Assembly (NCBI RefSeq): GCF_000407185.1
Contig: NZ_KE136482.1
Span: 930,001 to 994,000 of the forward strand
Length of the DNA: 64,000 bases
Origin: Enterococcus malodoratus ATCC 43197
GTDB taxonomy: Bacteria; Bacillota; Bacilli; Lactobacillales; Enterococcaceae
Reading direction: 5' to 3'
The position numbers and the translations under genes were made by a program. Numbering within the stretch: position 1 is the stretch's first letter; the number at the start of each line of letters is the position of its first letter. Positions 1,982-18,248 of this stretch are shown here, one piece after another. A model generated the notes under the pieces. That model had not been told where the DNA came from. It did not search any database and saw only the letters and a list, made by a program, of their open reading frames with translations.

Positions 1982-4900
1982 TTATTCACTAACCAACTTC
2001 ACCCGACAAGCATTTCTGCCCACAAAGAAGTGACTTTCATCCAACTCAACGGTTGGTTCGTTATAACTGCTTTTCACATTGACGAAGCTTTGATCGATCA
2101 AGCGAGTTCCTGTCATTCCAGCTGGAATATTTGCTCGTAACGCCTTATTGACATCGTCGAAACTGTTCTCAATTTGTTTTTGATTGCCTTGCAGGATGAA
2201 GTACATGCCCACTTTTGGTCCTTTTTTCAAATAGCGATTGAAGTTTTCACTAGTGATAAAGGATTTTTCACCAAAGACTTGAACATCTGGGATGTAAACA
2301 AACATCGGTTCATGAATCCCGCTGATCTCACGTTCATTGATTTCACTGATCAAATCATTGGTAAAGGTGCTGTACTCGCCTTCAGAAATCAACAGGTCAG
2401 AACTTCCTGAATAGGACTCAAAACGATCACCGCTATTAAAAATGACCCGTTGAACTTGCCCTGCTAAACGCTTGAAGTTCTCCATAATTACTCGTTCGAT
2501 GGCTTCGGTTTGCTGCGGCGTATCATCACCGATTACAAAATAGCCATGTTCTTGCGGATTGAACCCAACGGCGATTGTGGTTTCTTTATCAAGCGCGATT
2601 GGCAATTGTCCTTGTGTCAATAATTGCTGCGTCGTTTGATTGGTAAAAAATTCTTCCAGACTGATCACATTCGACAGCATCGGAATCTTCGTTGGACGTT
2701 CTCCTTGCCAAGCTTGATCCAATGAAGCTATTTCTGCTTCTAACTGATTCAAGCGATCAATGTCGTTTTCACCAACAGTTGGTAAATAGATCTGAATCTC
2801 TTGCGGCATGTCCAATTTGATTTGAGCCCGACCAATAATTTCTTGCGGAATCAATGCATCGCGACCGACAACATCTCGAATCGCCCCTTCTTCAACTAAG
2901 AACAACCCGATATGGGAAGGAATATTACTCGCCATACTCATTCGGAAACTGTTGGTTCGTAAAACGGCCATTACAGCATAAAGACCTAGACTAGCGCCTT
3001 CACGTAAAAGTTGATTCAAGACGGATTCAATCTGTTCTTCCAACGGACTTTCTTTAATCGCATCGAAACCGTCGACGACTGTGATGATTACTGGTAAAGA
3101 AACGCCCGCTTTCTTCTCGTATTGTGAAAGACTCGCAACACCATAATCAGTGAACGCTTCTTTTCTCTGTTGAATCTCTACCCGAATCCGCTTCAAGAAT
3201 TTCAACAATTTTTCTTCTTCCTCTAAACGGACATGATCAACAACATGCGGTAAATCTTTCAAAGGCAACAACCCATTGGTGCCAAAATCAAAAAGATTGA
3301 ATTGAACCTGTTCAGGATTATTTTGGCGTGCAAAATTCATTAATAAGGTTTGCAATAAAGTAGACTTCCCAAAGCCTGGCGATCCATAGATAGCGGTGTG
3401 GCTCAAAGCTTCTAAGTCAAAATCAAAATTGACTTGCTCCTGACGAGTAGGGATATCCATCAATCCTAGCGGAACTGCTAAGCGACGTTCATTTTTCCAT
3501 TCAGCGAGATCGATAACTGGCGTATCAATGATTTCTTCCAATGGCGGCAGCCACGGTTTATCTGGTAATACCGCGCTTGATTCATCTGCATATTCGGCGA
3601 TCGCTTCAACTACTGCATCCAATTGTGTCTGTTCCTCTTCTGTTTTGACGACTGCAACTTCGTCTTCTGAAAGATCCAGCGTTAGCAATTCGTACTGGCC
3701 AAGATTATTGATCCACCAAATACGCTCATCGACCTTTTCCTCATGATTTGCGTCAGGATCATAGGTGGCACCACTCCAAGCAGACTGGAACAACTCATAG
3801 ATTTCATTATTTCCGACCTGCAGATAGGCCCGACCAGGTTGTGTGATACTCGCTGCATCAGGTGTTTTGATAATCTCATTTGAATCAGCCGGATCGGCCA
3901 CCTTTAATGCTAATTTGAAACGTGAGTTAGACCAGATTTGATCGTCCACGACTCCGCTTGGTTTTTGCGTTGCTAAAATTAGATGAACTCCTAATGACCG
4001 ACCGATTCGAGCAGTGGAAACCAACTCCGCCATGAAATCCGGCTCATTTGCCTTTAACTCAGCAAACTCATCGCTGATCAGGAATAAATGCGGCAAAGGA
4101 TCGCTTGGATATTTCCTCTTTTCAACGGGATCAGTGATTTCTTTTCCTTGCTTATAAAGCTTGGTATAGCCGTTGATGTGATTCACACCGAATTCTCCAA
4201 ACTTCCGTTGGCGCTTTTGTAATTCCGCTCGAATACTTTGCAGAGCACGGGCAGAACTGGCACCGTCCAAGTTCGTGATCGAACCTAATAAATGAGGAAG
4301 CTTCGCAAATAGATTAGCCATTCCCCCACCCTTAAAGTCGATCGGTAAGAATCCAACATCTTCAGGTGCGAAGTTGACCGCTAGAGATAAGATATAGCTT
4401 TGAACGATCTCTGATTTCCCTGAACCAGTCGTTCCCGCAACCAAACCATGCGGTCCGTGAGCCCGCTCATGCAAATTCAGCGAGACTAGATCATCTTTCC
4501 CGCGTAAACCTAATGGTACCGCCAGAGATTTTGAAGTATTCGCTTTTTGCCAACGTTGTGCTATTTGTAATTCTTCCGTCTTTTTCACTTCATACATTCC
4601 CAGAAAATCAATCGCTTCAGGAATCGCATTTTTCTCGACTTCAACATGATTCAAATTCGCTAATCGTTGAATTGATTCAGCTACAGTAAATGTTTTCGGT
4701 AAATGGACGGGACGGAAAAATTGGTTCACGTACACATGATTTTCATTGACCAAAGTCGCCGCTTCGCTACTTTGATATTCGATCATTGTAGTGGTGGTTT
4801 CCGGCAGCATATTCGCGCTTTCTTTTCCCCAAATGACCGTAACTCCATATTGGCTCATATCTTCGGCCAAATATTCATTTAAGCCATGACCGGATAACCA

Positions 4901-6436
4901 GCTTTCATCTAAAATCGTTAGTACATAATGCGGAGAAAACTGAATTTTTTCATTCTTTTCGGACTCTTTTAACTGTTGACGACGCTTAGTAATCAACTGA
5001 TAAAAGGAATTCAGTCCCATATCGCGGCTTTGTGCATTATGAATCATTCCGCGCAGATTCAACTGCTGCAATTGAAAATGCGGCAGCCAGCGCCAATCAT
5101 GCCATTTTTTCGTGTAATCTTCTTCTGACAATAAAGCGATAAATTGAACATCTCGATAAGAGTGAAAGACAGAAATCTGAAACAGAATACTTTGAACCGC
5201 TGTACGCAGATTTTCTGGCGTGCCCGCTAATCCAATGGTTTGGTTCAATAAAGTCGTCGTGATTGGCGCCTCTTTTAACATTTGATGCGGGCGCACAACT
5301 TTGTCCTCCGCAAACTCTGCTAACGGGTCAGCTTCATTTTCACTTTTTCGAAACTCCACCTTAAAGCTGGCTGGAATTTCACCAGTCCCTAAACGAAACT
5401 GTAAAAAATCAGCGTTTACCGCGGTTCGTTCATAAATACGCGGATGGTATTCTTTTGTCATCTGCGCCAAGGTCTCCATCGCGGGATTGTGATACTCCAA
5501 TGCTTTGCGCTGTTCAGCGGATAACTGCTCTAATTCTTTTTTCTGTTGGATCATGTAGCGCTGATAAGTCTCGCTTCGCAGTTCATTCTTTCGCTTGGTT
5601 TCTTTTTTGTTGGTAAAATAGCTGGACACAGAAAAACCAGCCGTTAACAAACTCGCTCCCCCCATGCTCAGCATCATGATGGGATTTCCTCCGCTTAAAA
5701 CACTGGATGCCCCACTTAAAACAACCATTCCTAACGGCGGAACGATCGAACGTAAAATCTCACTCTTTCCCTCGGCCGTTTTTGCGCTAGGCGGCGTGAC
5801 TGTCTGCTCTTTTTTGGGCGGTCTTAAGTGAATCCGCGGACTGCGGCGAAAATCCGGAAACGTAAGCGGGAATTCATTTTTCAAGACTTCCGGCATAATC
5901 TTGCGAAAATCTAATCGTACATTTTCTTTTAAACAAGTAATCTTGAATTGTTTTTCTCTTCGCTCGATGATTACGTCACGGATAATAACTTGATCACCAA
6001 CACAAAAATCCGTTGCTAATCGGCTAACCTGCTTCCTATTCCAATAAACTTTTTCGCCGTTGGCTTCTACAGATAAAAAATAGCTTTGCGGATCTTCTAT
6101 AGAAAGAATTCCATAGGCTTCGCTTGCCAAACAGATCTCTGAACCAGAGGCTTTGGAAATAGTCCATTGTTCTTTCGGTAGTGTGGTGGTAAAAACAGCT
6201 ACATCACGATGCGGAAGAATCAGTAATTCTTTTTTTGATTCTAAGGAGTTGTCACAGAACACTTCCCCATTTACACAGCTGATAACAAACTCATGGAAAA
6301 GAACGGTCTGGCCTTCGGTTAACTCGACATGATCAAAAACTGTATCAAAAAGAAAAACATCATAAAGAATTGCATCTTTCTCGATAATTTGATCATCGAT
6401 TGAAGGACAAGGTTGATTAGTCTGCTTGTTCATCAT
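1982..6436 (-). CDS. essC: Type VIIb secretion ATPase EssC
   Basis: This is the motor and central membrane component of the Ess/type VIIb system, 1484 residues, the usual length for Firmicutes EssC. The N-terminal 200 residues are FHA-like. Two membrane segments follow at about 230-275 (VPPLGMVVLSGASSVLSGG and the next hydrophobic stretch). There are then three FtsK/SpoIIIE-type ATPase domains. The first has Walker A GTTGSGKS near residue 670 and the Walker B-like HLFLISDEFAEL. The second has GSPGFGKST near residue 1020. The third is degenerate (VIGDDTPQQTEA), as is normal in the family. The first ATG (6436) has AGGAGG 8 nt upstream. It overlaps essB by 20 bp, showing translational coupling. 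The C-terminal part varies between EssC subtypes and pairs with specific substrates, so its type could help identify effectors lost to the IS30 insertion. Confidence 0.97.
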   Translation of the reverse strand: MMNKQTNQPCPSIDDQIIEKDAILYDVFLFDTVFDHVELTEGQTVLFHEFVISCVNGEVFCDNSLESKKELLILPHRDVAVFTTTLPKEQWTISKASGSEICLASEAYGILSIEDPQSYFLSVEANGEKVYWNRKQVSRLATDFCVGDQVIIRDVIIERREKQFKITCLKENVRLDFRKIMPEVLKNEFPLTFPDFRRSPRIHLRPPKKEQTVTPPSAKTAEGKSEILRSIVPPLGMVVLSGASSVLSGGNPIMMLSMGGASLLTAGFSVSSYFTNKKETKRKNELRSETYQRYMIQQKKELEQLSAEQRKALEYHNPAMETLAQMTKEYHPRIYERTAVNADFLQFRLGTGEIPASFKVEFRKSENEADPLAEFAEDKVVRPHQMLKEAPITTTLLNQTIGLAGTPENLRTAVQSILFQISVFHSYRDVQFIALLSEEDYTKKWHDWRWLPHFQLQQLNLRGMIHNAQSRDMGLNSFYQLITKRRQQLKESEKNEKIQFSPHYVLTILDESWLSGHGLNEYLAEDMSQYGVTVIWGKESANMLPETTTTMIEYQSSEAATLVNENHVYVNQFFRPVHLPKTFTVAESIQRLANLNHVEVEKNAIPEAIDFLGMYEVKKTEELQIAQRWQKANTSKSLAVPLGLRGKDDLVSLNLHERAHGPHGLVAGTTGSGKSEIVQSYILSLAVNFAPEDVGFLPIDFKGGGMANLFAKLPHLLGSITNLDGASSARALQSIRAELQKRQRKFGEFGVNHINGYTKLYKQGKEITDPVEKRKYPSDPLPHLFLISDEFAELKANEPDFMAELVSTARIGRSLGVHLILATQKPSGVVDDQIWSNSRFKLALKVADPADSNEIIKTPDAASITQPGRAYLQVGNNEIYELFQSAWSGATYDPDANHEEKVDERIWWINNLGQYELLTLDLSEDEVAVVKTEEEQTQLDAVVEAIAEYADESSAVLPDKPWLPPLEEIIDTPVIDLAEWKNERRLAVPLGLMDIPTRQEQVNFDFDLEALSHTAIYGSPGFGKSTLLQTLLMNFARQNNPEQVQFNLFDFGTNGLLPLKDLPHVVDHVRLEEEEKLLKFLKRIRVEIQQRKEAFTDYGVASLSQYEKKAGVSLPVIITVVDGFDAIKESPLEEQIESVLNQLLREGASLGLYAVMAVLRTNSFRMSMASNIPSHIGLFLVEEGAIRDVVGRDALIPQEIIGRAQIKLDMPQEIQIYLPTVGENDIDRLNQLEAEIASLDQAWQGERPTKIPMLSNVISLEEFFTNQTTQQLLTQGQLPIALDKETTIAVGFNPQEHGYFVIGDDTPQQTEAIERVIMENFKRLAGQVQRVIFNSGDRFESYSGSSDLLISEGEYSTFTNDLISEINEREISGIHEPMFVYIPDVQVFGEKSFITSENFNRYLKKGPKVGMYFILQGNQKQIENSFDDVNKALRANIPAGMTGTRLIDQSFVNVKSSYNEPTVELDESHFFVGRNACRVKLVSE

Positions 6437-7589
6437 TGGCTTGTCCTCCTAGCAGCTTCACATAATTATTGATCTGTTCTTCGTACTCTTTCAGCAGCTC
6501 TTGTTTCTTTTCGCCGTCCATTCGGGTATTGACTTTTGTCGCATCATACAATTTGGTGTAAGCATGCAAAACATATTGATTATCGCCGATATTTTTGGCT
6601 AAACTCAACGCCTTATCAAAATCTCCGCGCCCTAAATAAATCCAGAAGAGCAAGGTATTTTCACTAGATTTCTGAGAGAGCGTATTGAGAACGGCTTCCT
6701 TTTGCTCATTCGTTAAGCTATCCAATTGGATATAACTCGACGCTAAGATGTACTGTGCTGAGGTAGGCAGTTCCTCCGCATTATCTTTTTTTAGCTCGGC
6801 TGTTGCACCAGAATAATCATTAAAGATAAATTTCGACTCTGCTTCAATCACACGTTCTTGCAATGGGACTACCCGACCTGCGTAAACAGATAAACCAATT
6901 CCTAAACCAATAGCGGTTACCAGCAGAATCAAACTCCCCCACTTGAAAATGCGATAATGCTGTTTCTTAACTAATTTCTTTTCTCGTCGATTTCTCTCCC
7001 GCAAGAAAGTACTCGCTTCTGAAAGATGACGATCAATTTCTTCTGGTGATGTAGCCAGATAAATTTTCTCCACCAAAGCATTCTTGACAGCCCCAAGACC
7101 ATCCACTAATCCAGCAAAATCTAATTGCGGCTGCAGAATAAAGCAAATCAGCGCTTTGTATTGTTTAAAGAACTGTTCGTCAGTCGGTTGAAATGGTGTG
7201 ACGATTTCTGCCAGACCTCGATGTCCTAAGCGAATCGTATGACCGACAACCAATAGATTTTGCGGATGAATAAATGGATTAATTAATTGCTTCTGCAACT
7301 CTAAAAGGAAATGCATCTTCTGAGCCAACTCCAACCGTTCCAATTCATTTGAGCGTGCCGCAAATTTTTCGACTGTTTCACCAAACTTCGGGATTGTATA
7401 ATCAATAATCATTTCTTCTTCATTATGTTGACGAATACTACCTTCTAGACACTCAGTAGTCTGTGTAAGAATTTTTTGATACTGCTCAATCATTGCCCAC
7501 TTAAATTGATTGGCAGTCAGTTGTGTGGTCAGCGTTTCTTGTTGCCAAGTCTGATTGATTGTTATAACGCCATCATTTAGTTCCGTCAT
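6417..7589 (-). CDS. essB: Type VII secretion protein EssB
   Basis: This is a bitopic membrane component of the Ess system, 390 residues. Residues 1 to about 210 form the cytoplasmic pseudokinase-like domain, with no usable kinase motifs. One transmembrane helix follows a basic stretch (RREKKLVKKQHYRIFKWG, then LILLVTAIGLGIGLSVYAG, about 217-240). The remaining 150 residues form the extracellular alpha-helical domain seen in YukC/EssB. Known family members bind EssC and help assemble the translocon. The ATG at 7589 has GGAGAAAG before it. The start overlaps the end of esaB by 17 bp and the end overlaps essC by 20 bp, so the three genes should be translated together. Confidence 0.95.
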   Translation of the reverse strand: MTELNDGVITINQTWQQETLTTQLTANQFKWAMIEQYQKILTQTTECLEGSIRQHNEEEMIIDYTIPKFGETVEKFAARSNELERLELAQKMHFLLELQKQLINPFIHPQNLLVVGHTIRLGHRGLAEIVTPFQPTDEQFFKQYKALICFILQPQLDFAGLVDGLGAVKNALVEKIYLATSPEEIDRHLSEASTFLRERNRREKKLVKKQHYRIFKWGSLILLVTAIGLGIGLSVYAGRVVPLQERVIEAESKFIFNDYSGATAELKKDNAEELPTSAQYILASSYIQLDSLTNEQKEAVLNTLSQKSSENTLLFWIYLGRGDFDKALSLAKNIGDNQYVLHAYTKLYDATKVNTRMDGEKKQELLKEYEEQINNYVKLLGGQANDEQAD

Positions 7590-7845
7590 TTTCTTTCTCC
7601 GTTCTTACATATAATTGATCACCATCACTAATTGGATAATTAGTTAGCGGTAATTGCTGGTTGATTTTGATTGGCTTATTGATTAACTCCAAAGAAAATT
7701 TTTCTGGTAATGAGAAATTCATGATCGACAAAGCTTCTTGCAGCAATGGCACCAAACGCTCAAGTGTTACACGATTGGGAATCCGCAGGTCAATCACGTT
7801 TTCTTCATAATGCAAACCAATATTGATTGCTGTCTGTTTTTCCAA
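7573..7845 (-). CDS. esaB: Type VII secretion EsaB (YukD, ubiquitin-like), TTG start
   Basis: This is a small cytoplasmic protein with the beta-grasp fold of YukD/EsaB. The conserved pieces INIGLHYEENVIDLRIP, the helix LERLVPLLQEAL and the C-terminal YPISDGDQLYVRTE are visible. I choose the TTG at 7845 as start, giving 90 residues. AGGGGGA stands 6 nt in front of it, the resulting length matches the family (about 80), and the frame then begins just after the essA stop instead of overlapping it. An upstream ATG at 7896 lacks a site and would add 17 atypical residues. The family is required for, or regulates, type VII secretion; the exact role is unsettled. Confidence 0.9.
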   Translation of the reverse strand: MEKQTAINIGLHYEENVIDLRIPNRVTLERLVPLLQEALSIMNFSLPEKFSLELINKPIKINQQLPLTNYPISDGDQLYVRTEKENDGTK

Positions 7846-7855
7846 AATTATCCCC

Positions 7856-8338
7856 CTAACTTTTCCGAACAAAAATTGTTGAAAATCTTCGTCCAAGTAA
7901 TATCCCTAGAATTAACATCCCAACAATTAGGATACCTGCCATAAAGTAGATTAGAACTTGAGGTATCGAATGATTAGTCTTGTTCGTGGGATTTGAATGC
8001 ACCACATTATCTTGGTAATCCTGTAAAAATAAGATCTTTTCATAAGCTTTCTTATCTCTACCAGTTTCCGGTAATTGCCGTGTGACAAATACTTTTTCTT
8101 TGGCCTGTTGAGCGATCTGTTCGCGTTCAGCTAATTTTTGCTGATTGGTATCGGTTTTTCCCTTTAAAAACAAATCAGGGGCAATCAAATACTCGATCGA
8201 ATCTTCTTTTTCTTGGTGTTTTTCATAGATGACTTGATTATTGATGGTCAGCTTGCCATTATCTGCATAAACTCTGCCGCCAAAAAATCCGACCGCGAAT
8301 AAACCAAAAAAAGCAATCAGGACCCTGCGCTTATTCAT
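7856..8338 (-). CDS. essA: Type VII secretion protein EssA
   Basis: This is a 160-residue membrane protein. The N-terminal hydrophobic segment (RRVLIAFFGLFAVGFFGGRVYA) could be a signal or anchor. A polar middle region follows. A second hydrophobic helix near the C-terminus (IPQVLIYFMAGILIVGMLILGILLG, about 127-150) precedes a basic tail. This layout, size and position match EssA, an integral component needed for EsxA export in staphylococci. Start choice is ATG 8338, which has AGGTGA 6 nt upstream and overlaps the esaA stop by 8 bp. Primary sequence conservation in EssA is low, so the assignment leans on gene order. Confidence 0.85.
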   Translation of the reverse strand: MNKRRVLIAFFGLFAVGFFGGRVYADNGKLTINNQVIYEKHQEKEDSIEYLIAPDLFLKGKTDTNQQKLAEREQIAQQAKEKVFVTRQLPETGRDKKAYEKILFLQDYQDNVVHSNPTNKTNHSIPQVLIYFMAGILIVGMLILGILLGRRFSTIFVRKS

Positions 8339-11300
8339 GATCAATCACCTGTCCTAATGGCTCGCCTAGCGTATCTTTTGAGACACTTACGAAGAAGTTC
8401 AATCCCAAACTGACCAATGTCAATACAATTAGGAAGAGATACGTTCCCCATCCAATCGACAATCCATTAAGCAGCGCGGTATAGCCATTTTCGATATTTT
8501 GCATCGGCGATATCCTGAAGATAAAATGAATCACACTCCCCGGAGTGGTCGTCATCCCTAATAATGGTGTCATCATAAGATAGAAGCCGAATAGTAACCC
8601 GACGATGAATAAGCCAACCCGTCCAAATTGTCGTGCCAATGCCGTAGTAAGCAATAAACTGATCAAGAATACCAAGAAAGTGTAACTGAACCAGCCTAAG
8701 GTTGAGTTCACTGTTACGATCCACGCTGTGATCCCACTCACAAAAATGGCAATAATCATACTGATGATTAACGTTCGCAAAGCGTTTGGTGTATTTTTCC
8801 AAAGTCGGCTTTGCGTAACAAAGAAATCATGGTCGCGCAATTTGCGTTCGAATAGGCTAGAAGAAAGTCCATAGCCAACAAAGAGAGCCACGATCGTACC
8901 GATAAATGTTAAGTAATAAGGAACCGCCGAAATCGTTCGGTTTTCACCAAATTCACCGATCGTATTCATAGGACTCGCCAAGAAATTAAAGACTTTTTGA
9001 TTATCCGCTCCCCCTTGACGTGTGTTGGTGAGCACTTTATCAAAATTTTTACTGTAGATGTCGTTAGTGCTATCCTTTTTGTTCGCGTCTGCTACTACCT
9101 TGTCCAAATTATTTAAAACCTTATCCGCATTTCCTTGAACATCCTTCGTAGTTTTCGTAATATCTTCAATTTTCGATCCAACATCTTCCACTTCAGCAGC
9201 CGATTTATTGGTCGACTCCGCAGAATTTTTCGCTGTTTCTACTAGCGCCTTCATCGTATCTGAAACTGAGGCAGTCGCGTCTGCAATTGGTTTCGTATCG
9301 CCAGATTCTGGATGCGGATTCTCCTCGTTGATAATCGATTCTGTTTGGATTTTTTCCGCTTCTTTCCAACTGCCATATGTTGCTGCAATCTGTTCATTTG
9401 CGGAATTAAACCATTGATTGAGTTTATTCGCTTCATTGTTCAGCATTTCTGGCAGCATCATGAAGTGCAGCGTACTATACAATGTATTCGTTTCATTTTC
9501 TGCATTTTTTTCTGTTCCAATAGTTTGTCGCAATTCCTTAATTTGTTGGTCCACCTGCTTATAAAGTTTGTCGCCCCCTGCTCTATACTCCTTAACCAAT
9601 GAATCCTGAATCAACTTCTTCTTCGCTTCATCAGTAATATTGTCGTACGAATTATAGATTGATTCGCTGGTGGCAAGCTCTTCTAGTGGTCTACCGATAT
9701 TCGCTGGATCTTGAATCAGCGCTAAAAATCCGGGCAGGTCACCTTGTTGATTTGGATCAGCGAAAAGCGTCATGATCTGCTGTGCACTTCCTCCAAGTGT
9801 TTCAAACTGAGCAAAGATTGACGGCAAGTCTTCAACCAGCGGTTGGTTCTTATCTGCAAAGCTGGCATAATATCCTTTGTTTTGTTCTGCACCGTTCACT
9901 CGCCAAGAATATTCAAGCTCCACAAAAGCCTCTTTTAATTCGGTATCTGACAGGGTCCATTGAATAGTCGGACTAATGTTTACACCGATCTGTTTCGGCA
10001 AATCACTGATTGGTGTCGTTCCGCCTGGTTTCGAAGCCACACTAATGGATAAGCTGTTTGGCGGTCCCGCCGTTACGGTTGTTTCATAGTCGTATTGGCT
10101 TAGTTCGTTATCCAAAATACTTTTAACCGTCGCAGCTAAAGCTCCTAAATCCTTGATTTCTACGTTAGAAACTGAAACTAAATCAAGCGATTTTATTGTT
10201 CTAGGATTGATCGCAACTATACAGGCTTGTTCTACTTCAACTGGATTTGCATGTGGCACTTCACCCGCAGTAGTTAAATACTTGAAGTTAGTCCCTGTAC
10301 TAAACGATACTCCGTAATCTTCAGCGTATTCTTCAATCACACTTAATTCTTGTTTATAACGGTTTGCTTCTGAATCACTCAATTTTCCATTGCTGACTAA
10401 TAAATCAAGCCATGTTCGTAGTTCATTATTATTGATGGTATTAATTTTTCCATTCAATACTTGTAAATATTGGTCTTTCAAGTTGGATGAATTTTGACTT
10501 GAAGTTAGATCTGTTAGGTTTAAGATCGCTTGCTTCGTGTCTTCCAGCGTTGAATCATCCGGTGTTTTGTTTCCATCAGCATAGTAAGTCTCTGCGATTT
10601 TTGTTCGTAATTCTTTCAGAGATTCCACTTGCTGTTTCAATTGATCGATTTCATTTTTTATTTCATCCATGCGCGCGGTTTGATTTTCTTGGAAGTACGC
10701 TGCTTGTCCGTAAAAATCTGCCAGTACGCCTGTATTTTTTTTCGTTGTTGAATCGCTTTGGTAAAAATTATTCATCTGCTGGATTAACGAGTGATTCAAT
10801 CCATCAAATTGTGCTTGATAATTGGTCAAATCATTGTCCCATTGCGCGGCTAATTGTTTCTTCTGGAGCTCCACCTGATCATTGAATTGTTGGATAGATT
10901 CTTCGATTTTTTTATTCACATCTTCTGTAAATTGATCAACCGTTTCTTTATTCTTCTCCAAAGATTCACTGGAACTGTTCAATCCTTCATTATTCGTATC
11001 CAGCAATTGCTGAAATGAATCTACAAAACTCTTTTGTTCAGCGATAAATCGTTTGTTGTCCGCATCCAAAATACTCGATACATCTAATACTGAAGAAAAA
11101 TTACCTGGTAACTCCTTGAACGGGCTCTGGATATTATTTGCTAACGATGTGTGGGTCTCTTTATCTCCTCGAACGATCGTGTTTACATTCCGTTGTGCTT
11201 CTGAAATATTCCCTACGATGCTAGAGAAATACATCTGCACGATTCGTTGATTAAATTCCTTTAAAATACTATCTACTTTTATTTGAACCGCCTGGTTAGT

Positions 11301-11711
11301 GAGTTCATTTTGACCTTCACTCACTTGGTAATCCACCACTGCCTGATCCGGTGCAATACTCTGCAAATCTAGCAGGCGTTCCGAGAAATTCTGCGGAATA
11401 TAAATGACCGCATCAAACTGTCCGTCAATAATTCCAGCCTCTGCGACACTCCTTGTGGTGGTCTGCCAATTGTGGTCCAAATCATTATTAATTAAAGTGA
11501 CAAAGTCTCTGCCCAATATGTATTGTCGATTCTCGAACTTCGCCCCTTTATCCTCATTTACTAATGCATAAGTTACCTGCGAAGTTTGATCCTCTGCGGC
11601 TTTTCTGAGGTTGTCATCTTTTAGCGCGAAAAAAAGCAGCACCGTAACCAGCAAAATGCCGCCTGCCGTTAATCCTAGCAATGAAAACTTACTTTGTTTT
11701 TTCTTTTGCAT
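8331..11711 (-). CDS. esaA: Type VII secretion protein EsaA
   Basis: This large polytopic membrane protein has 1126 residues. One N-terminal TM helix (FSLLGLTAGGILLVTVLLFFAL, about 9-30) is followed by a very long extracellular domain. That domain contains the YhgE/Pip-like region (about 45-200) and extended coiled coils (about 230-400 and 740-900). Five or more C-terminal TM helices follow (about 930-1115). The topology is that of EsaA/YueB, the surface-exposed scaffold of the type VIIb machine, which in Bacillus is also the SPP1 phage receptor. ATG 11711 is preceded by GGGGAG. An intrinsic terminator stands just upstream, so much of the esxA transcription should stop before this gene. Confidence 0.95.
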   Translation of the reverse strand: MQKKKQSKFSLLGLTAGGILLVTVLLFFALKDDNLRKAAEDQTSQVTYALVNEDKGAKFENRQYILGRDFVTLINNDLDHNWQTTTRSVAEAGIIDGQFDAVIYIPQNFSERLLDLQSIAPDQAVVDYQVSEGQNELTNQAVQIKVDSILKEFNQRIVQMYFSSIVGNISEAQRNVNTIVRGDKETHTSLANNIQSPFKELPGNFSSVLDVSSILDADNKRFIAEQKSFVDSFQQLLDTNNEGLNSSSESLEKNKETVDQFTEDVNKKIEESIQQFNDQVELQKKQLAAQWDNDLTNYQAQFDGLNHSLIQQMNNFYQSDSTTKKNTGVLADFYGQAAYFQENQTARMDEIKNEIDQLKQQVESLKELRTKIAETYYADGNKTPDDSTLEDTKQAILNLTDLTSSQNSSNLKDQYLQVLNGKINTINNNELRTWLDLLVSNGKLSDSEANRYKQELSVIEEYAEDYGVSFSTGTNFKYLTTAGEVPHANPVEVEQACIVAINPRTIKSLDLVSVSNVEIKDLGALAATVKSILDNELSQYDYETTVTAGPPNSLSISVASKPGGTTPISDLPKQIGVNISPTIQWTLSDTELKEAFVELEYSWRVNGAEQNKGYYASFADKNQPLVEDLPSIFAQFETLGGSAQQIMTLFADPNQQGDLPGFLALIQDPANIGRPLEELATSESIYNSYDNITDEAKKKLIQDSLVKEYRAGGDKLYKQVDQQIKELRQTIGTEKNAENETNTLYSTLHFMMLPEMLNNEANKLNQWFNSANEQIAATYGSWKEAEKIQTESIINEENPHPESGDTKPIADATASVSDTMKALVETAKNSAESTNKSAAEVEDVGSKIEDITKTTKDVQGNADKVLNNLDKVVADANKKDSTNDIYSKNFDKVLTNTRQGGADNQKVFNFLASPMNTIGEFGENRTISAVPYYLTFIGTIVALFVGYGLSSSLFERKLRDHDFFVTQSRLWKNTPNALRTLIISMIIAIFVSGITAWIVTVNSTLGWFSYTFLVFLISLLLTTALARQFGRVGLFIVGLLFGFYLMMTPLLGMTTTPGSVIHFIFRISPMQNIENGYTALLNGLSIGWGTYLFLIVLTLVSLGLNFFVSVSKDTLGEPLGQVIDHE

Positions 11712-11723
11712 ATTCTTCTCCCC

Positions 11724-11755
11724 AAAAAACGTCAGCACACAGATTGTGCTGACGT
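11724..11755 (-). terminator. Terminator between esxA and esaA
   Basis: On the minus strand ACGTCAGCACA pairs perfectly with TGTGCTGACGT (11-bp stem, 5-nt loop), followed by TTTTTT. It lies after the esxA stop and before the esaA ribosome binding site. It is likely a partial terminator giving more esxA message than machine message, which fits EsxA being a secreted substrate needed in excess. Confidence 0.85.
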
Positions 11756-11768
11756 CCTTCGCTATTGT

Positions 11769-12065
11769 TTAGTTTAACCCGAATGAACCAGCATCTTGAC
11801 GGTCACGTTCAGCAACAGTGTCCGCATATTTGTTCAACTGCCCATGGATACTTTCTAGCAGCTCTTCCATTTGTTTCACGTTGCCTTCTAATTGGTTGTA
11901 TTGCTCCAAGTATGCGCGAAACGCTTCTCCCTGCCATTGTTGAGAGATTGTTTGGTTCATAGAATTGACCTTGCGAATCGCATCTTCGATTTGTGCCGAT
12001 GCCTGTTGATAAACCTTCGCCTGTGATTTCAGCTGTTCGGGTGTGACTGTAATTGCTCCTGCCAT
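11769..12065 (-). CDS. esxA: WXG100 secreted protein EsxA
   Basis: This 98-residue protein has a helix-turn-helix hairpin fold with the signature WQG at about residue 43-45 (QQWQGEAF), flanked by two amphipathic helices of about 35 residues. The length, the start MAGAITVTPEQLKSQAK and the absence of a signal peptide are typical of WXG100 proteins exported by EssC as dimers. A strong ribosome binding site (AGGAGGAATTAATAAA) precedes ATG 12065. It is the first gene of the leftward cluster. Its upstream region carries the TTTTCCGTAT box shared with the short peptide ORF at 13389, which suggests shared control by the adjacent Rgg regulator. Confidence 0.96.
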   Translation of the reverse strand: MAGAITVTPEQLKSQAKVYQQASAQIEDAIRKVNSMNQTISQQWQGEAFRAYLEQYNQLEGNVKQMEELLESIHGQLNKYADTVAERDRQDAGSFGLN

Positions 12066-12149
12066 TTTATTAATTCCTCCTAAATATAAGTTGTCTATAA
12101 GATACCCTATTTTAGTTGTCGTGGATCAAAGTTCGTCAGATACGGAAAA
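12066..12149 (-). promoter_or_regulatory. esxA promoter region with TTTTCCGTAT box
   Basis: Read on the minus strand, TTTTCCGTAT occupies 12149-12140, ending 75 bp before the esxA ATG. A plausible -10 (TATCTT or TATAGA) lies about 36-45 nt further on. No good -35 is visible at the right spacing (only TTGATC, spacer 19), as expected for an activator-dependent promoter. The same ten bases occur 76 bp before the ATG of the peptide ORF at 13389. The stretches before the ribosome binding site are also alike (AACTTATA..., AGGAGGAAT). The motif is seen; its role is inferred. Confidence 0.5.
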
Positions 12150-12340
12150 AAATTGCGGATACGATGAATAAATCTCTTAAAAGTCTCGTTAATAGAACAA
12201 AATTAATGAAATTTTCCACAAATTTTATTTTTAACATTTGATTGCCGATCCGTTTTCAACACTTTTTAAATTGATATTTATGATTTTTCTCTTCTTTGTC
12301 TTCTAAACTTCTAGGCAAAATCGACTATCTTTTCTTCCAC

Positions 12341-12374
12341 AAAAAAAACGATACTCTCTTTTAAGAAAGTATCG
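12341..12374 (-). terminator. Intrinsic terminator of the rgg gene
   Basis: On the minus strand CGATACTTTC pairs with GAGAGTATCG around a short loop and is followed by eight T. The stem overlaps the last codons of rgg. It insulates rgg from the esxA promoter, so esxA should have its own promoter. Confidence 0.88.
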
Positions 12375-13254
12375 CTGTTGTTATTCCTGTTAATTCAAAA
12401 TCAACTTCAAATAGCTGTTCTATATATTTCAATAAATCGTAATTCATACTTTGATACTGCTTAGATGATAAATACTCACAAACTTTCAATGACTGATGAA
12501 CTTTTTCCTTACCCTGTTCATTGCCTCTGAGTACCTCCCAAATACCTTGAAGCAGCAGCCGCAGGTTCATCTCAAAATACATGTCTTCTTCCAAATGAAA
12601 TTCATCCAGTCTCTCAAGGTACTTCCAAGCATAACTTCGCTGATCATTTTGAATAAAATAGACAATCGCGTTTGCAAGCATCCGAAAACTCTCACTTCGA
12701 CCCTTTAGACTATCCTTGTAGATAGATAGGCTCATCATGGCTCTTTCAAGAATCAATTCTACAAACTCAGGCGTAAAGACAAACATACAATTATTAAAAA
12801 GAATCAGCTCATAGTGTGTCCACGTATGTGTATTGATCAGATATTGATAAACATTTGACTCTTCTACATCTATCGCGTCTCCTCTTAAACGTGCAGTTAA
12901 CAAATCACACAAGTTCATCAGATTTTCTTCCCGTTTTGACGGATTACTTTGCTTTACCCTGCAGAATTCTGCGATCCGCTGCAACTCCTCTGTATCTTTA
13001 CTGAGAAAGGCGGTCTGTATCTCTTTCATCATATGACTCACTGCATTCACATTATCCGGATAATTAAAAATTTTCAGTTCGTCATAATCAAGATTGATAC
13101 GATCCAAAAAATAAGTCAACTTGCTAACTGTAGTATCGGCCTCATTTTTTACGAATCGATCATAAACAGATCGGCTTACCTCCTCCCCGCAAATCTCAGA
13201 AATAGTAATCCCCTTTTGCTTTCTCACTCGTTCAACAATTTCCCAAACTTCCAT
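12361..13254 (-). CDS. rgg: Rgg/RopB-family peptide-responsive regulator
   Basis: This is a 297-residue cytoplasmic transcription factor. Residues 1-65 form a Cro/C1-type helix-turn-helix of the Rgg type (VERVRKQKGITISEICGEEVSRSVYDRFVKNEADTTVSKL). The remaining 230 residues are the all-helical TPR-like peptide-binding domain, including the family-typical WTHYELILFNNCMFVF near residue 145. Length and layout match Rgg/RopB/MutR/ComR. AAGGAAG precedes ATG 13254. Such regulators are activated or repressed by short peptides imported through Opp, and the cognate peptide gene is normally adjacent. Here a 9-codon ORF with a perfect ribosome binding site lies divergently 135 bp away. The nearest downstream target is the type VII locus starting with esxA. 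The regulation itself is inference. Confidence 0.9.
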   Translation of the reverse strand: MEVWEIVERVRKQKGITISEICGEEVSRSVYDRFVKNEADTTVSKLTYFLDRINLDYDELKIFNYPDNVNAVSHMMKEIQTAFLSKDTEELQRIAEFCRVKQSNPSKREENLMNLCDLLTARLRGDAIDVEESNVYQYLINTHTWTHYELILFNNCMFVFTPEFVELILERAMMSLSIYKDSLKGRSESFRMLANAIVYFIQNDQRSYAWKYLERLDEFHLEEDMYFEMNLRLLLQGIWEVLRGNEQGKEKVHQSLKVCEYLSSKQYQSMNYDLLKYIEQLFEVDFELTGITTAILS

Positions 13255-13282
13255 GTTTACTTCCTTTTCTTTTTGAATAAGT

Positions 13283-13350
13283 TTTTCCCGTAAACGACTA
13301 AAATTTTCCGTATAAGCTGAATAATGAAAAATACCTGCCTTTTAGTATTA
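13283..13350. promoter_or_regulatory. rgg/peptide intergenic regulatory region with CCGTA repeats
   Basis: Two similar elements, TTTTCCCGTA (13283-13292) and TTTTCCGTAT (13304-13313), repeat with CCGTA 20 bp apart, about two helical turns. A -10-like TATTAT lies near 13346-13351 without a good -35. TTTTCCGTAT recurs upstream of esxA at nearly the same distance from the start codon. It is a candidate operator for the Rgg protein encoded alongside. Confidence 0.45.
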
Positions 13351-13388
13351 TCATCTAAGTAAATAACTTATAAAAGGAGGAATCGATC

Positions 13389-13418
13389 ATGTGGTGGTTG
13401 ATATTAATCGATTTTTAG
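13389..13418 (+). CDS. Putative leaderless SIP-like pheromone peptide (MWWLILIDF)
   Basis: This is a nine-codon ORF, ATG to TAG, encoding MWWLILIDF. An ideal ribosome binding site (AAAGGAGG) lies 8 nt upstream. It is divergent from the rgg gene, the arrangement of ropB and its signal peptide SIP (MWLLLLFL) in Streptococcus pyogenes. SIP is secreted and re-imported without leader or processing. Shared features are the Met-Trp start, a length of 8-9 residues, near-complete hydrophobicity and a terminal aromatic/aliphatic residue; this one has an added Asp near the C-terminus. The alternative reading of the same ribosome binding site is a GTG at 13391 giving 29 residues, with a poorer start codon and longer spacing. 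Expression and activity are inferred, not shown. Confidence 0.6.
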   Translation: MWWLILIDF

Positions 13419-13500
13419 TAAATTTCCACTATTCCATTATAAAATATATGTTTTTTTCTTATAAACTGATAATAACATAAAAAAATTATCTAGAGGTATT

Positions 13501-13526
13501 CTTAATTAGAGTTTCCTCTAATTAAG
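13501..13526. other. Perfect 11-bp hairpin downstream of the peptide ORF
   Basis: CTTAATTAGAG, a 4-nt loop, then CTCTAATTAAG form a perfect stem 80 bp after the peptide ORF stop. No T tract follows on either strand, so it is not a classical terminator. It may end or stabilise a short transcript that carries the peptide ORF. Confidence 0.5.
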
Positions 13527-13616
13527 AAATTGCGAAAAAAAATAAACGTTTCTTCCTACTAACGAATACACCTGAAACAATAAAGTCGCAGGTGTTAGTT
13601 GCCCAGTATAAAAAAA

Positions 13617-14072
13617 TCACTTTGTTCTGTTCAACTTCAGCTTTTTTATTTCCTTGCCATTATTAAAAATTTGCAGCTCTAATTGGCTTTTTTTCAGTCT
13701 CGTTGCATGATATTCTGTCTTGCTTCCACTTTTGGTTAGCACTATCTTTCTTTTAGAAGAGTTCACACCAATTTGTGCATTTTTCATCATGTTATGTCCA
13801 TTACGATTGATGTCCCAGTATTCAAATTTTCTTTTTTTGGTTTTAATCGTAAATTTTTCAGATTGATTGGACCATGTTCCTTCTAACCACGCCGCGTTAT
13901 TCTCAGTGTGAGTATTGATAAAAAATAATAAAAAAACTGAACATAGAATTATTAGCCCCATAAATAGGCGCCTTTGTGTTTTCGATAATTTTTTTAACCG
14001 ATAAAAAAATTGGTATAATCCCGTGTCCAGTCGTTGTAAATAATGGCTGAGCGTGCCTTTGTCTTTTTCCAA
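13617..14072 (-). CDS. Membrane-anchored protein of unknown function (TTG start)
   Basis: This is a 151-residue protein of no family I recognise. Residues 1-34 are cytoplasmic and basic, one TM helix follows (LFMGLIILCSVFLLFFINTH, about 36-55), and the outside domain of about 95 residues is Lys-rich. That domain begins WLEGTWSNQSEKFTI and is probably a small beta structure of the kind seen in lipocalin-like or DUF4828-type enterococcal proteins (guess). The start is TTG at 14072, supported by AAGGAGGG 5 nt upstream. It lies between the Rgg/peptide pair and the NlpC/P60 gene with its own spacing on both sides, so cotranscription is unclear. It could be an immunity or envelope-stress protein, but nothing in the sequence proves this. 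Confidence 0.7.
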   Translation of the reverse strand: MEKDKGTLSHYLQRLDTGLYQFFYRLKKLSKTQRRLFMGLIILCSVFLLFFINTHTENNAAWLEGTWSNQSEKFTIKTKKRKFEYWDINRNGHNMMKNAQIGVNSSKRKIVLTKSGSKTEYHATRLKKSQLELQIFNNGKEIKKLKLNRTK

Positions 14073-14156
14073 ACAATCCCTCCTTTTTCACTTGATATGA
14101 ATAAGTGATAGAAAGAGCCGTTTGAAGAATCTGACTAAAAAACTAAAGAGCTCTTT

Positions 14157-15338
14157 TTACTTATTTAGAATTCTTGCAGCATACCAGGCGATGCCTTCCG
14201 ATTTCCATCCGACTTTAACCAAATTGTCTCGTTCTGAAGCCAAAGGAGTATAATGATGGCTGTCTTCTCTTGGTGCAGCACTCGGGTTGTATAGACGATA
14301 AACCGGAACACTTCCTCCTGAAAACCATGAAACGCCTTCGTACTTCCAGCCAGCCTTAACTAACTCGTTTTTTTCATATACGTGGGGCGTGTAATGATGT
14401 CTGCCATTGTTTGGATTGTACATTCGATAAACCGAAGACCCAGTAGATGGAGCTATCCAGCCAACACCTTCATAGTTCCAACCGACATTAATTAGATTGA
14501 TCGCCTCACTTGTCAATTGTGCGTAGTGATGCTGTCCGTCATTTTTATTGTACATTCTAAAAATGAAGCGTTCGTTCGACGCTTGACCGTCTGTTGAAGG
14601 ATAAACGTTGGGGTCTGTTCCCGCTGATTTTAGAATTCTTCTAGCAAAATTTGGATAAAAATAGGTAATATCAACTGCCGTCACATTTTGTCCTGGTTGA
14701 GGAGCATGAATCATTTGATTATTTCCAATGTACATTCCAACATGGTAGGTAGCACCCCTGCTGCCGTAAAAAAGTAAATCCCCCGGTTGTAAATCCTTCA
14801 GATTAACTTCTGTCCCATATTTCTCTTGATTCGTGGTTCCCATTGGCAGATCAACATTTACAGCCTGCTTATAGACATACTTAACTAATCCTCCGCAGTC
14901 AAATGTGTCCGGTCCAAACGCTCCCCAAGCATACGGCTTCCCAATTTGAGCTCTTGCCATTGAAACAACCGAATTTTGTTCCCCAGTCGCACGACTCATT
15001 GGCGGTAAACTTGCGGCCTCAAGTGTCGGAATGCTCATGATTTGTTCGAATTGCTGCTCACTAAATCCAGCTTGTACAGCTTTAGCTTCTTCCGACTCAT
15101 ATAAAGCTGACGCTTCCTCATCCTGTTTGGTGATTTCATCAGATGTGTCGGTAGAACTAGTCGATTTGTTCTTCATTGTCCTCGAACTATTTTCGGAACT
15201 TGGAGCTGGACCGCTTGCCTCCGTATCTAATGTAGAATCATTAGCGGCGACAGCCATAATTCCTGTATTTGCAAAAGTGACTAAACCTAATAACGCTAAA
15301 GAAGTACTAAATAAACGCCGTCTTAGATGCTTTTTCAT
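14157..15338 (-). CDS. Secreted NlpC/P60 peptidoglycan endopeptidase with three C-terminal repeats
   Basis: This is a 393-residue secreted cell-wall hydrolase. It has a signal peptide (about 1-32, ending AVAA) and a Ser/Thr/Glu-rich linker. The NlpC/P60 domain (about 122-235) has the catalytic Cys in FDCGGLVKYVYKQA and the His in TYHVGMYIGNNQMIHAP. The usual DCSG is DCGG here, a tolerated change. The C-terminus carries three repeats of about 45 residues (each with YRxYNxxxGxHHYTP and AGWKYEGVxWF patterns), which resemble the DUF5648 repeat common on Gram-positive surface proteins and probably bind wall glycans. It likely cleaves stem peptides. AACAGGAG precedes ATG 15338. The gene is divergent from the agr-like operon, whose regulators in other genera control secreted hydrolases. 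Regulation by that system is plausible but not shown. Confidence 0.88.
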   Translation of the reverse strand: MKKHLRRRLFSTSLALLGLVTFANTGIMAVAANDSTLDTEASGPAPSSENSSRTMKNKSTSSTDTSDEITKQDEEASALYESEEAKAVQAGFSEQQFEQIMSIPTLEAASLPPMSRATGEQNSVVSMARAQIGKPYAWGAFGPDTFDCGGLVKYVYKQAVNVDLPMGTTNQEKYGTEVNLKDLQPGDLLFYGSRGATYHVGMYIGNNQMIHAPQPGQNVTAVDITYFYPNFARRILKSAGTDPNVYPSTDGQASNERFIFRMYNKNDGQHHYAQLTSEAINLINVGWNYEGVGWIAPSTGSSVYRMYNPNNGRHHYTPHVYEKNELVKAGWKYEGVSWFSGGSVPVYRLYNPSAAPREDSHHYTPLASERDNLVKVGWKSEGIAWYAARILNK

Positions 15339-15639
15339 AAAATAACTCCTGTTTTTGTAATATTTTTAATTTACAGAACAACAATATGCGAAAAAAGCTT
15401 TTATTTGCACATAATAAAATTCGGATTTCCCCGCCGATTCACGTTCTATAAAATAACTATTTTCCAAAAACAATTGTACATTAAATACGTTAGGATTTCA
15501 TCCCCTCACTTTACTCATTTTTTAACCCCGAAACTCAACTTTTTCTATAGCTAACTATAATTGGAAATCCTTTTGAAAAAAATGAAAATATCCTCAATGG
15601 TCACTTTTTCACCTTGAATGCATTCAAGTTTATTTGATA

Positions 15640-15730: not shown

Positions 15731-16090
15731 ATGAGAACATCGATTTTTTTAGAATCAAAAAAAGGCACCGTCATCATCCAAGCAGCAGAATTACTTTATA
15801 TCACAGTGGATACTACTAAAGATCATTCTTTATGCTTTGTAACAAAACAAGAAAAGCACTATTGTACCGGAGATTTAAATGACTTCGATGATACAAATAG
15901 AAATTGGCTGTTTCGTTGTCATCGTTCCTTCATTGTAAACTTATTAACTATCAAAGAAATCAATAAATACGAACGTCGTGTCTATTTCTTAGATGATCAG
16001 TCTGAGAATAATTGTCCCTTTTCAAGAAGAAAATATGTCCCGTTAAAGGAGTCTTTAAAAGACTTTTTATTAACCGAACAGCAAGCCTAA
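15731..16090 (+). CDS. Stand-alone LytTR DNA-binding protein
   Basis: This 119-residue protein is essentially one LytTR domain (about residues 1-105), with no receiver domain. The recognisable core is NWLFRCHRSFIVNLLTIKEI, matching the FFKIHRSFVVNLENIAEI stretch of the full-length regulator at 18245, and RRKYVPLKESL near the end. It is the first gene of the agr-like operon, with AGGAGG before ATG 15731. Without a receiver it cannot be switched by phosphorylation by the usual route. It could compete with, assist or bypass the AgrA-like regulator at the paired 21-bp boxes upstream. Single-domain LytTR proteins exist in Firmicutes, some controlled by a membrane inhibitor (LytTR regulatory systems); no such inhibitor gene is adjacent here. 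Confidence 0.85.
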   Translation: MRTSIFLESKKGTVIIQAAELLYITVDTTKDHSLCFVTKQEKHYCTGDLNDFDDTNRNWLFRCHRSFIVNLLTIKEINKYERRVYFLDDQSENNCPFSRRKYVPLKESLKDFLLTEQQA

Positions 16091-16185
16091 TAATCACTTG
16101 TCCCGAAAGTTTTTCATTGTAGTGTTGTTCTAAATGCATTACAATCGAACAAGAATGCGAAAGACATCACAAGGAGTATCAATAA

Positions 16186-16794
16186 ATGACACATAACTTT
16201 ACATTATTCCTATTGAACAAAGTCAGCGCGCAAAATTATATGTCTGAAAGTGAATACGAGAATGTTGTCTATTCTTTGGAGATTCTGCTGATAAACATTT
16301 TCAAAAGTATTCAAATCTACTCAGTCGCACTTATTTTAGGTGTCCTATTCGAAACGTTTATTATGAACTTGGCCTATGCCCTCCTAAGGATACACGCCGG
16401 AGGTTGGCACGCAAAATCCTCCATCAACTGTTCTCTTTTTGGTTTGGTCGTTTTTGTGGGGATACCACTCATTTTCCAAAAGTTTGAATTTGCTTTGAAC
16501 TTTTATTGGCTATTGCTTTTGTCAGGAATAATATTAGCCTTTGTTGCGCTTTATGCGCCGGCTGATACAGAAAAAAATCCTTTGGTTAGCGTGAGTGAAC
16601 GAAAAAGAAAGAAAATCCTTTCTCTTTTAAGTGTCCTAGTAATCAGCGCCTTCTCGCTATTTTTTGCGGGACCGCAAATAGCAACTTTGCTGGTGACCGG
16701 TTTGTTAATTGAAACACTTTTGATCCACCCATTATTTTATAAATTAATAAAAAGGAGATATAAAAACTATGAAAACTATCAAAATCAACCGTAA
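16186..16794 (+). CDS. agrB: AgrB/FsrB-like peptide-processing membrane protease
   Basis: This 202-residue polytopic protein belongs to the accessory gene regulator B family. The catalytic pair is visible in LRIHAGGWHAKSSINC: His near residue 75 and Cys near residue 82, as in staphylococcal AgrB (His77/Cys84). About five TM segments follow. AgrB enzymes cut the C-terminal tail of AgrD and close the thiolactone or lactone ring. Its 3' end overlaps the start of the AgrD-like ORF by 26 bp, consistent with coupled synthesis of protease and substrate. AAGGAG lies before ATG 16186. It could also be called FsrB-like, but the separate precursor ORF and Cys-based ring favour the agr naming. Confidence 0.93.
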   Translation: MTHNFTLFLLNKVSAQNYMSESEYENVVYSLEILLINIFKSIQIYSVALILGVLFETFIMNLAYALLRIHAGGWHAKSSINCSLFGLVVFVGIPLIFQKFEFALNFYWLLLLSGIILAFVALYAPADTEKNPLVSVSERKRKKILSLLSVLVISAFSLFFAGPQIATLLVTGLLIETLLIHPLFYKLIKRRYKNYENYQNQP

Positions 16795-16921
16795 TTTTTT
16801 GCTTAGAAACATTTCAAAAATCCTTGTCGCAACCTCAGTGGTATTGTTAAGCCGTCCTTGTCTTCTTTGGGGTTATGAACCTGAGAATCCAAAACTAAAA
16901 AAATTGAATATTAAAGAATAG
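16769..16921 (+). CDS. agrD: AgrD-like autoinducing peptide precursor (predicted ring CLLWG)
   Basis: This 50-residue ORF starts with AAGGAG 8 nt before ATG 16769. It has the three AgrD parts. First is an amphipathic/hydrophobic leader (KTIKINRNFLLRNISKILVA...). Second is a short signal region with a single Cys (SRPCLLWG, Cys31). Third is a charged tail with conserved Pro and Glu (YEPENPKLKKLNIKE). Aligned by eye with Listeria AgrD, whose ring CFMFV is followed by YEPKSP, the mature signal here should be a five-residue thiolactone CLLWG, perhaps with one or two N-terminal residues (RP). The ring chemistry is thiolactone (Cys), unlike the Ser lactone GBAP of E. faecalis. The stop lies 1 nt before the kinase ATG. 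Confidence 0.88.
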   Translation: MKTIKINRNFLLRNISKILVATSVVLLSRPCLLWGYEPENPKLKKLNIKE

Positions 16922-16922
16922 A

Positions 16923-18248
16923 ATGGAAATCTTTGCTTTATTTCTATTAACTTCTATAGAAAATTTCTCACAACTATTTATCTATTCTAAGTTAATTAAT
17001 AAAAGAATTCCTATACGAACAGCAATCTCTCTTCCATTAATTTTGATTGCTGTTTATCTTTCCTTTAATTATCTAATTTTTGTGGTAATTATTTTTTACT
17101 TCTTAGTGATCGGAAAAAGGCTTAATAAGGATTGTAACAATAATCTGTTATGGTTTTACAGTATCTATACAGTATTCTCGTATACTGTATTTGCTTATTT
17201 CATGAATTCAACAATTCTTTTCTTGATTGGAGAAAATACATTCGATCAATATATGTATCTGATTAATATGACGATGTCTCCTCTTTTTTCAATTATATGT
17301 AACATACTCTTGTTGCGATTAATCAGACCTAGTATTGATTTTTTAAAGAAGCATCAGGATAATTTAAATCAAATTTTTCTATTATTCATAAACGTTTTAT
17401 TGACCCTTTGCTATATCATACAGTTCGGCAATTATTGGATAGAGCAATATTGGTTGACAGATGGAAATCCTATTCGGAAATATCTAATCGTAATATTCAT
17501 ATTAGTAATCGTTCTACTGATTGTCTATTTGAACATTAAAACACGACAACTTGATAAACAACGTATTCAAGAGCTAAAGGACAACCAGTTGGCCGATCTC
17601 ACCTCATACGTTCAGCAAATCGAAACGATGTATGGAGAGCTTCGAAGTTTTCGGCATGACTATCATAATGTTTTAATCAGCTTGAATGAAAGTATTAAGA
17701 GCAAGGATCTTGCCGTCATTGAAAACACCTATAATCAGGTGCTAAATAGCGAGGGGCTTACATTGGATGATGAGCACTATTCATTAGCACGATTAGACGG
17801 CCTGAAGACATTGCCGATCAAAGGAGTTTTTTCGGCCCACATTATCCAAGCGTGGCAGAAAAATATTCCGGTACACATAGAAATCGATGACACCATTCAG
17901 GATGAGCCTATTGAGATTTTGGACTATGTCCGCATTACTTCCATTCTTTTGGACAATGCGATTGAAGCGGCCGAAAAATCTGAAAATCCTTTTTTAAACA
18001 TCGTTTTTTTGAAGAATCAAGCGGACAAAGAACTTCAGCTGATTATTGAAAATTCTTGTCCAAATGAACCAATCGATATTGCTAAAGTTTTTAAAAAGGA
18101 CTATTCAACAAAGGGAGAAAATCGTGGGCTTGGATTAGCCACGGTTCAATCTATTTTACAGAACTACACAAATCTGTCCTTGCAAACGGAATATCAACTG
18201 GGTGTGTTTCGACAAGTTCTGATGATTAAGGAGGAGATTTCGCGATGA
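16923..18248 (+). CDS. agrC: AgrC/FsrC-like sensor histidine kinase
   Basis: This 441-residue membrane kinase of the HPK10 type has six or seven TM helices in residues 1-205 forming the peptide sensor. A coiled coil with the phosphoacceptor follows (LRSFRHDYHNVLISL, His near residue 245; HDYxN is the HPK10 H-box). The GHKL ATPase domain is SPOB/HATPase_c_5-like: N-box SILLDNAIEAAE near residue 345 and G-box ENRGLGLATVQSIL near residue 400. It should bind the thiolactone made by the two preceding genes and phosphorylate the following regulator. The ATG directly follows the agrD stop and the 3' end overlaps agrA by 4 bp (ATGA-type coupling). Confidence 0.95.
   Translation: MEIFALFLLTSIENFSQLFIYSKLINKRIPIRTAISLPLILIAVYLSFNYLIFVVIIFYFLVIGKRLNKDCNNNLLWFYSIYTVFSYTVFAYFMNSTILFLIGENTFDQYMYLINMTMSPLFSIICNILLLRLIRPSIDFLKKHQDNLNQIFLLFINVLLTLCYIIQFGNYWIEQYWLTDGNPIRKYLIVIFILVIVLLIVYLNIKTRQLDKQRIQELKDNQLADLTSYVQQIETMYGELRSFRHDYHNVLISLNESIKSKDLAVIENTYNQVLNSEGLTLDDEHYSLARLDGLKTLPIKGVFSAHIIQAWQKNIPVHIEIDDTIQDEPIEILDYVRITSILLDNAIEAAEKSENPFLNIVFLKNQADKELQLIIENSCPNEPIDIAKVFKKDYSTKGENRGLGLATVQSILQNYTNLSLQTEYQLGVFRQVLMIKEEISR

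Follow-up and report, generated by a model that had tools for sequence, protein, structure and literature searches.

A probable leaderless communication peptide gene divergent from a RopB-type receptor gene in Enterococcus, and a promoter element shared with the adjacent type VII secretion operon

Leaderless communication peptides (LCPs) are treated as a class in the text of PMC10518010 (Aggarwal et al., 2023), where most putative members are 8 to 10 residues long. According to the same text, LCPem of Enterococcus malodoratus has 9 residues and is encoded divergently from the receptor gene ropBem, with a pair of type VII secretion system (T7SS) genes downstream from ropBem and two hypothetical genes downstream from LCPem. 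Adding the synthetic peptide led to specific induction of the T7SS genes; the hypothetical genes were not induced, a result given there as data not shown. The pairing of a leaderless peptide with a RopB-type receptor is therefore already known in Enterococcus from PMC10518010 and is not new. Here, we report the analysis of a 64-kb stretch of Enterococcus DNA (the window), in which an open reading frame (ORF) of only 9 codons, the mini-ORF, is divergent from a gene, rgg, encoding a regulator of the Rgg family.

Direct reading of the plus strand gives an ATG (13389–13391), nine sense codons specifying MWWLILIDF, and a TAG (13416–13418), preceded by the Shine-Dalgarno sequence AAAGGAGG. The peptide has no leader, and eight of its nine residues belong to the set FILMVWY, the remaining one being Asp at position 8. 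The start codons of the mini-ORF and of rgg are separated by 134 nt. For estimation of chance occurrence, a class of mini-ORFs was defined by an ATG start, 7–11 codons, at least 75% of residues in FILMVWY, and a Shine-Dalgarno match of at least 6. The MWWLILIDF ORF was the sole member of this class in the window, 60 dinucleotide shuffles of which contained 0.07 members on average. Within the intergenic stretch (13255–13616), a member appeared in a fraction of 0.0005 of 2000 shuffles. The combination AAAGGAGG-N5-9-ATGTGG occurs three times in the genome to which the window belongs, and the other two occurrences begin frames that stay open for 66 and 146 codons. Reading and shuffles thus confirm the original prediction of a 9-codon ORF with a strong Shine-Dalgarno sequence and an 8-nt spacer, divergent from rgg. 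The same Shine-Dalgarno sequence could serve, with a spacer of 10 nt, a GTG at 13391 that starts an overlapping frame open for 29 codons, in which case the peptide would be made as a longer precursor. This is highly improbable, since the ATG, at 8 nt, yields a hydrophobic nonapeptide with a Met-Trp start like that of SIP, the signal of Streptococcus pyogenes RopB, and since the published LCPem has 9 residues (PMC10518010).

The gene order of the window corresponds on both sides to the LCPem/ropBem layout, if the term 'convergently' in the text of PMC10518010 is read as co-directional. Beyond rgg, and in the same direction, lies a T7SS operon that the original prediction did not mention; a WXG100 substrate, EsaA, YukD, YukC/EssB, and EssC, which form the type VII secretion set of Firmicutes, are encoded in this one cluster. 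The mini-ORF is most likely the published LCPem gene, or its counterpart in a very closely related strain, and the letters of LCPem would accordingly be those read here. It is unlikely that the mini-ORF is instead a second, unpublished member of the class, with a code of its own, belonging to another species of the avium group of Enterococcus. That the string MWWLILIDF was not found in PubMed Central (PMC) full texts (papers under CC0, CC BY, and CC BY-SA) would fit such a member, but LCPem as described in the text of PMC10518010 agrees with the locus in the size of the peptide, the order of genes to either side, and the target, and the receptor was found in only one of the 20 genomes of its own genus that were examined.

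Among solved receptors, the closest to the window's Rgg by sequence was 9lth, followed by RopB, both ahead of Rgg2. Comparison of folds also placed 9lth as the closest solved receptor, with RopB ranking among the receptors of SHP peptides. The structure 9lth is that of NrpR, which is probably RopBss of Streptococcus salivarius. Of the RopB residues facing SIP, N152, F155, R188, N192, and Q199 are identical in Rgg, V191 is replaced by A, and I195 by V. In the capping helix of RopB, M267 is kept, F268 and Y271 are changed, and K278 falls outside the alignment. Three of the four residues of the pH switch H144-Y176-Y182-E185 are kept, Y182 being replaced by G. The proposal that a SIP-like leaderless peptide is paired with a RopB-type receptor outside streptococci is supported both by the sequence and by the text of PMC10518010.

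Across 105 genomes of the family, the pattern GGAGG-N5-10-ATGTGGTGG was found in seven, once in each. Two of these sites begin short hydrophobic ORFs, the window's own and MWWFIFFI in genome G029, both adjoining an rgg; two begin short but charged ORFs, and three start longer frames. In G029 (L046, 13741–13767, minus strand), the 8-codon MWWFIFFI follows AGGAGG and is directed towards the 3' end of another rgg (12856–13737), the product of which is about 25–27% identical and which lies near a gene with lanthionine-synthetase domains (9338–12370). MWWFIFFI may be a second peptide of the leaderless kind, its ORF and the rgg being convergent; the G at R188 and the R at H144 of the G029 Rgg speak against a RopB-like pocket.

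The receptor itself was searched for in the 105 genomes at an E value of 1e-40 or better. It was detected in seven, of which one is the genome containing the window; the other six all belong to a single second genus and carry it at 47–57% identity. All six orthologous receptors have esxA nearby, although in G034 the distance is about 3 kb, with other genes between. At the position of RopB H144, four of the orthologues have R, one has N, and one retains H. One result weighs against assigning a peptide signal to this locus: when the 1.5-kb flanks of the six orthologous receptor genes were scanned, none held a convincing mini-ORF, the rest of these genomes not having been searched. Conservation of the mini-ORF beside orthologous rgg genes, the absence of which the original prediction had named as a ground for refutation, was therefore not observed (none convincing in six orthologues at 47–57%). 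For this species, the published effect of LCPem addition outweighs the missing conservation. Candidates from these loci that were set aside include short flanking ORFs with a weak start or Shine-Dalgarno sequence, such as MWIKHAFF of L063, which begins with GTG, has GGTG as its Shine-Dalgarno sequence, and lies about 1.1 kb away from rgg; MWQIIH (6 codons, AAAGGA; L031 and L032), which is contained in another open frame at a distance of about 4.8 kb past rgg; and MFLLLPIYL (L045), which is antisense within an essC-like frame. The six loci show that a receptor of this type can exist without an adjacent mini-ORF, which would fit if the MWWLILIDF frame were fortuitous, or belonged to a leader that is not translated, and Rgg answered to another ligand. 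This is nevertheless very unlikely in view of the intergenic chance rate given above and of the seven ATGTGGTGG sites, among which both short hydrophobic ORFs adjoin an rgg. Since the six receptors lie near esxA, the linkage between receptor and secretion genes appears wider than the peptide.

Leaving its operator aside, the mini-ORF very probably encodes the LCP of a RopB-LCP quorum-sensing pair. What the present analysis contributes to this reading is the ORF, its ribosome-binding site, the layout, the kinship of the receptor, the pocket residues, and the promoter element described below. By analogy with SIP and LCPss, the unprocessed nonapeptide would leave the cell, re-enter neighbouring cells, and bind the tetratricopeptide repeat (TPR) pocket of the adjacent Rgg. 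The loaded Rgg would then bind upstream of the peptide gene, providing positive feedback, and is predicted to bind upstream of esxA as well, switching on the type VII secretion operon.

The 10-base sequence TTTTCCGTAT precedes the start codon of the mini-ORF by 85 nt and that of esxA by 84 nt, in the same orientation, and occurs at these two places only on both strands of the window. Followed by AGGAGG after 50–72 nt, it has no occurrence in the 4.62-Mb genome beyond this pair, and the reversed pattern gave no match; the pattern with 50–72 nt is fitted, since the range was chosen knowing the pair and a first range of 60–85 nt missed esxA. Of 400 trials with shuffled promoters, 3 produced a common 10-mer whose two distances agreed to within 2 nt, and 47 produced one irrespective of distance. 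Upstream of the mini-ORF, CGTA occurs at –100 and –80 (20 nt apart), and upstream of esxA at –98 and –79 (19 nt apart). In relatives, CGTATACG lies before esxA in five of the six orthologous loci, its first base being 99–108 nt ahead of the ATG; G062 lacks it. The promoters of G066, G067, and G070 are very similar, so that the independent cases number about three. The promoter stretch with CGTATACG occurs twice in G034, before esxA and before the first gene after rgg (L045, 13334–13460 and 15943–16180).

Several results weigh against an operator. The genome contains CGTA-N8-13-TTTTCCGTAT three times, at the two promoters and at a third site that lies within an open frame in antisense orientation, and the reversed control has one match. 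Compared over their whole length, the two promoters show no similarity beyond that of shuffles (score of 11, reached in 61%). Inverted repeats of at least 8 nt were absent from both upstream stretches, which sets the element apart from the palindromic sites given for RopB and RopBss in the text of PMC10518010. The 20-nt spacing of CGTA is confined to the window's two promoters and G034, which has one such pair; the next CGTA follows after 29 nt in the loci of the E. mundtii type and after 71 nt in G065, and G062 has none. TTTTCCGTAT itself is absent from the relatives' loci. Matches to the sigma-70 consensus between 11700 and 13700 are as numerous as expected (7 versus 6.9), and no promoter is therefore claimed. 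The restriction of TTTTCCGTAT with AGGAGG to the two promoters nonetheless suggests, on sequence grounds, that the common element is a shared Rgg operator. As to whether Rgg binds both sites directly, we consider the chances about even. For RopBss, binding was seen at the promoter of the peptide gene and not at that of the target (PMC10518010).

A wider reading is tentative, and we hold it to be somewhat less probable than not. One Rgg operator, consisting of a pair of CGTA half-sites separated by about two turns of the helix, would stand before the peptide gene and before esxA and fire both directly. The relatives resembling E. mundtii, which keep the receptor, CGTATACG before esxA, and the secretion genes but lack the peptide gene and mostly the pH-sensing histidine, would possess orphan receptors that have another ligand or hear the peptides of other species. 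The peptide would then be the evolvable part of a stable module of receptor and secretion genes. Relative to the text of PMC10518010, in which the operator was looked up by word search and which was the only paper so searched, the shared promoter element and the orthologues without a peptide gene are additions. The proposed operator would account for the action of the published E. malodoratus peptide on the secretion genes, and the relatives with a receptor beside the same secretion system but no peptide gene seen provide a concrete set of candidate orphan receptors. More generally, a signal of a class that gene callers skip was recovered from raw sequence.

The features of the locus are collected in Table 1.

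Table 1. Features of the mini-ORF locus (window positions)
Feature	Position	Strand	Basis or remark
Mini-ORF MWWLILIDF, probable LCP	13389..13418	+	Sequence; layout as for LCPem in the text of PMC10518010
Shine-Dalgarno AAAGGAGG	13373..13380	+	8-nt spacer (13381–13388) to the ATG
Proposed operator, LCP promoter	13289..13313	+	CGTA at –100, TTTTCCGTAT at –85; binding predicted
Proposed operator, esxA promoter	12140..12163	-	CGTA at –98, TTTTCCGTAT at –84; binding predicted
RopB-like Rgg receptor, 297 aa	12361..13254	-	Rgg_C and TIGR01716; nearest solved structures by sequence 9lth and RopB
Terminator-like hairpin	12347..12376	-	3' end of rgg, before esxA; weak (1 found versus 0.8 expected in the scanned region)
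esxA, WXG100 protein	11769..12065	-	PF06013, TIGR03930
esaA	8331..11738	-	TIGR03929
essA-like	7856..8344	-	Position only; no Pfam family match
yukD-like	7573..7896	-	PF08817
yukC/essB	6417..7589	-	PF10140
essC-like, FtsK/SpoIIIE ATPase	1982..6436	-	PF01580
151-aa hypothetical protein facing the mini-ORF	13617..14072	-	No family match
NlpC/P60 protein, also pointing towards the mini-ORF	14157..15338	-	PF00877, PF18885

Further along the window (15731–18248), a cluster of the agr type encodes a LytTR protein, AgrB, an AgrD-like peptide (16769–16921; 50 aa, a single Cys, named by position only), and an AgrC-type kinase, which places two peptide signalling systems within about 6 kb. Plasmid records searched with 12200–15400 gave matches on megaplasmids of E. 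raffinosus (five records) and E. gilvus (one) at 74–76% over 33–38% of the query, and four short matches elsewhere. The neighbouring NlpC/P60 gene sits on these megaplasmids of about 0.9–1.2 Mb (L033, L034), and one from E. raffinosus carries LytTR, AgrB, and GHKL genes at the place matching the agr-like cluster. No rgg or T7SS gene is listed in the two megaplasmid regions viewed, the gene table of which is incomplete, and the receptor had 11 matches in plasmid records at 21–27%. Since the contig holding the window is 1.19 Mb long and its NlpC/P60 neighbour is borne by megaplasmids in E. raffinosus and E. gilvus, the locus may also be on a megaplasmid. Other copies of the locus, sought in a contig search that may omit the window's own genome, were limited to two E. 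mundtii records at 52–53%.

Among known systems, the window agrees with LCPem-RopBem in that the leaderless peptide has 9 residues and its gene diverges from that of a RopB-type receptor, with type VII genes beyond the receptor and two hypothetical genes on the opposite side; no difference was found, the letters of LCPem being absent from the text of the paper (PMC10518010). In Rgg/SHP systems (Rgg2, Rgg3, and Rgg144), SHPs are cut from a longer precursor, whereas the window's ORF has no leader. LCPss-RopBss of S. salivarius has the closest solved receptor by sequence and fold, if RopBss is 9lth, but RopBss bound only the peptide promoter, whereas the element common to both promoters of the window suggests that both are bound. 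SIP-RopB of S. pyogenes resembles the window in the Met-Trp start, the hydrophobic unprocessed peptide, and the divergent layout (PMC6565748; letters of SIP in PMC13361665), as well as in the conservation of H144, E185, R188, and N192. The window differs from SIP-RopB in having 9 residues rather than 8, Asp at position 8, G in place of Y182, and, as its target, a secretion operon on the receptor's side.
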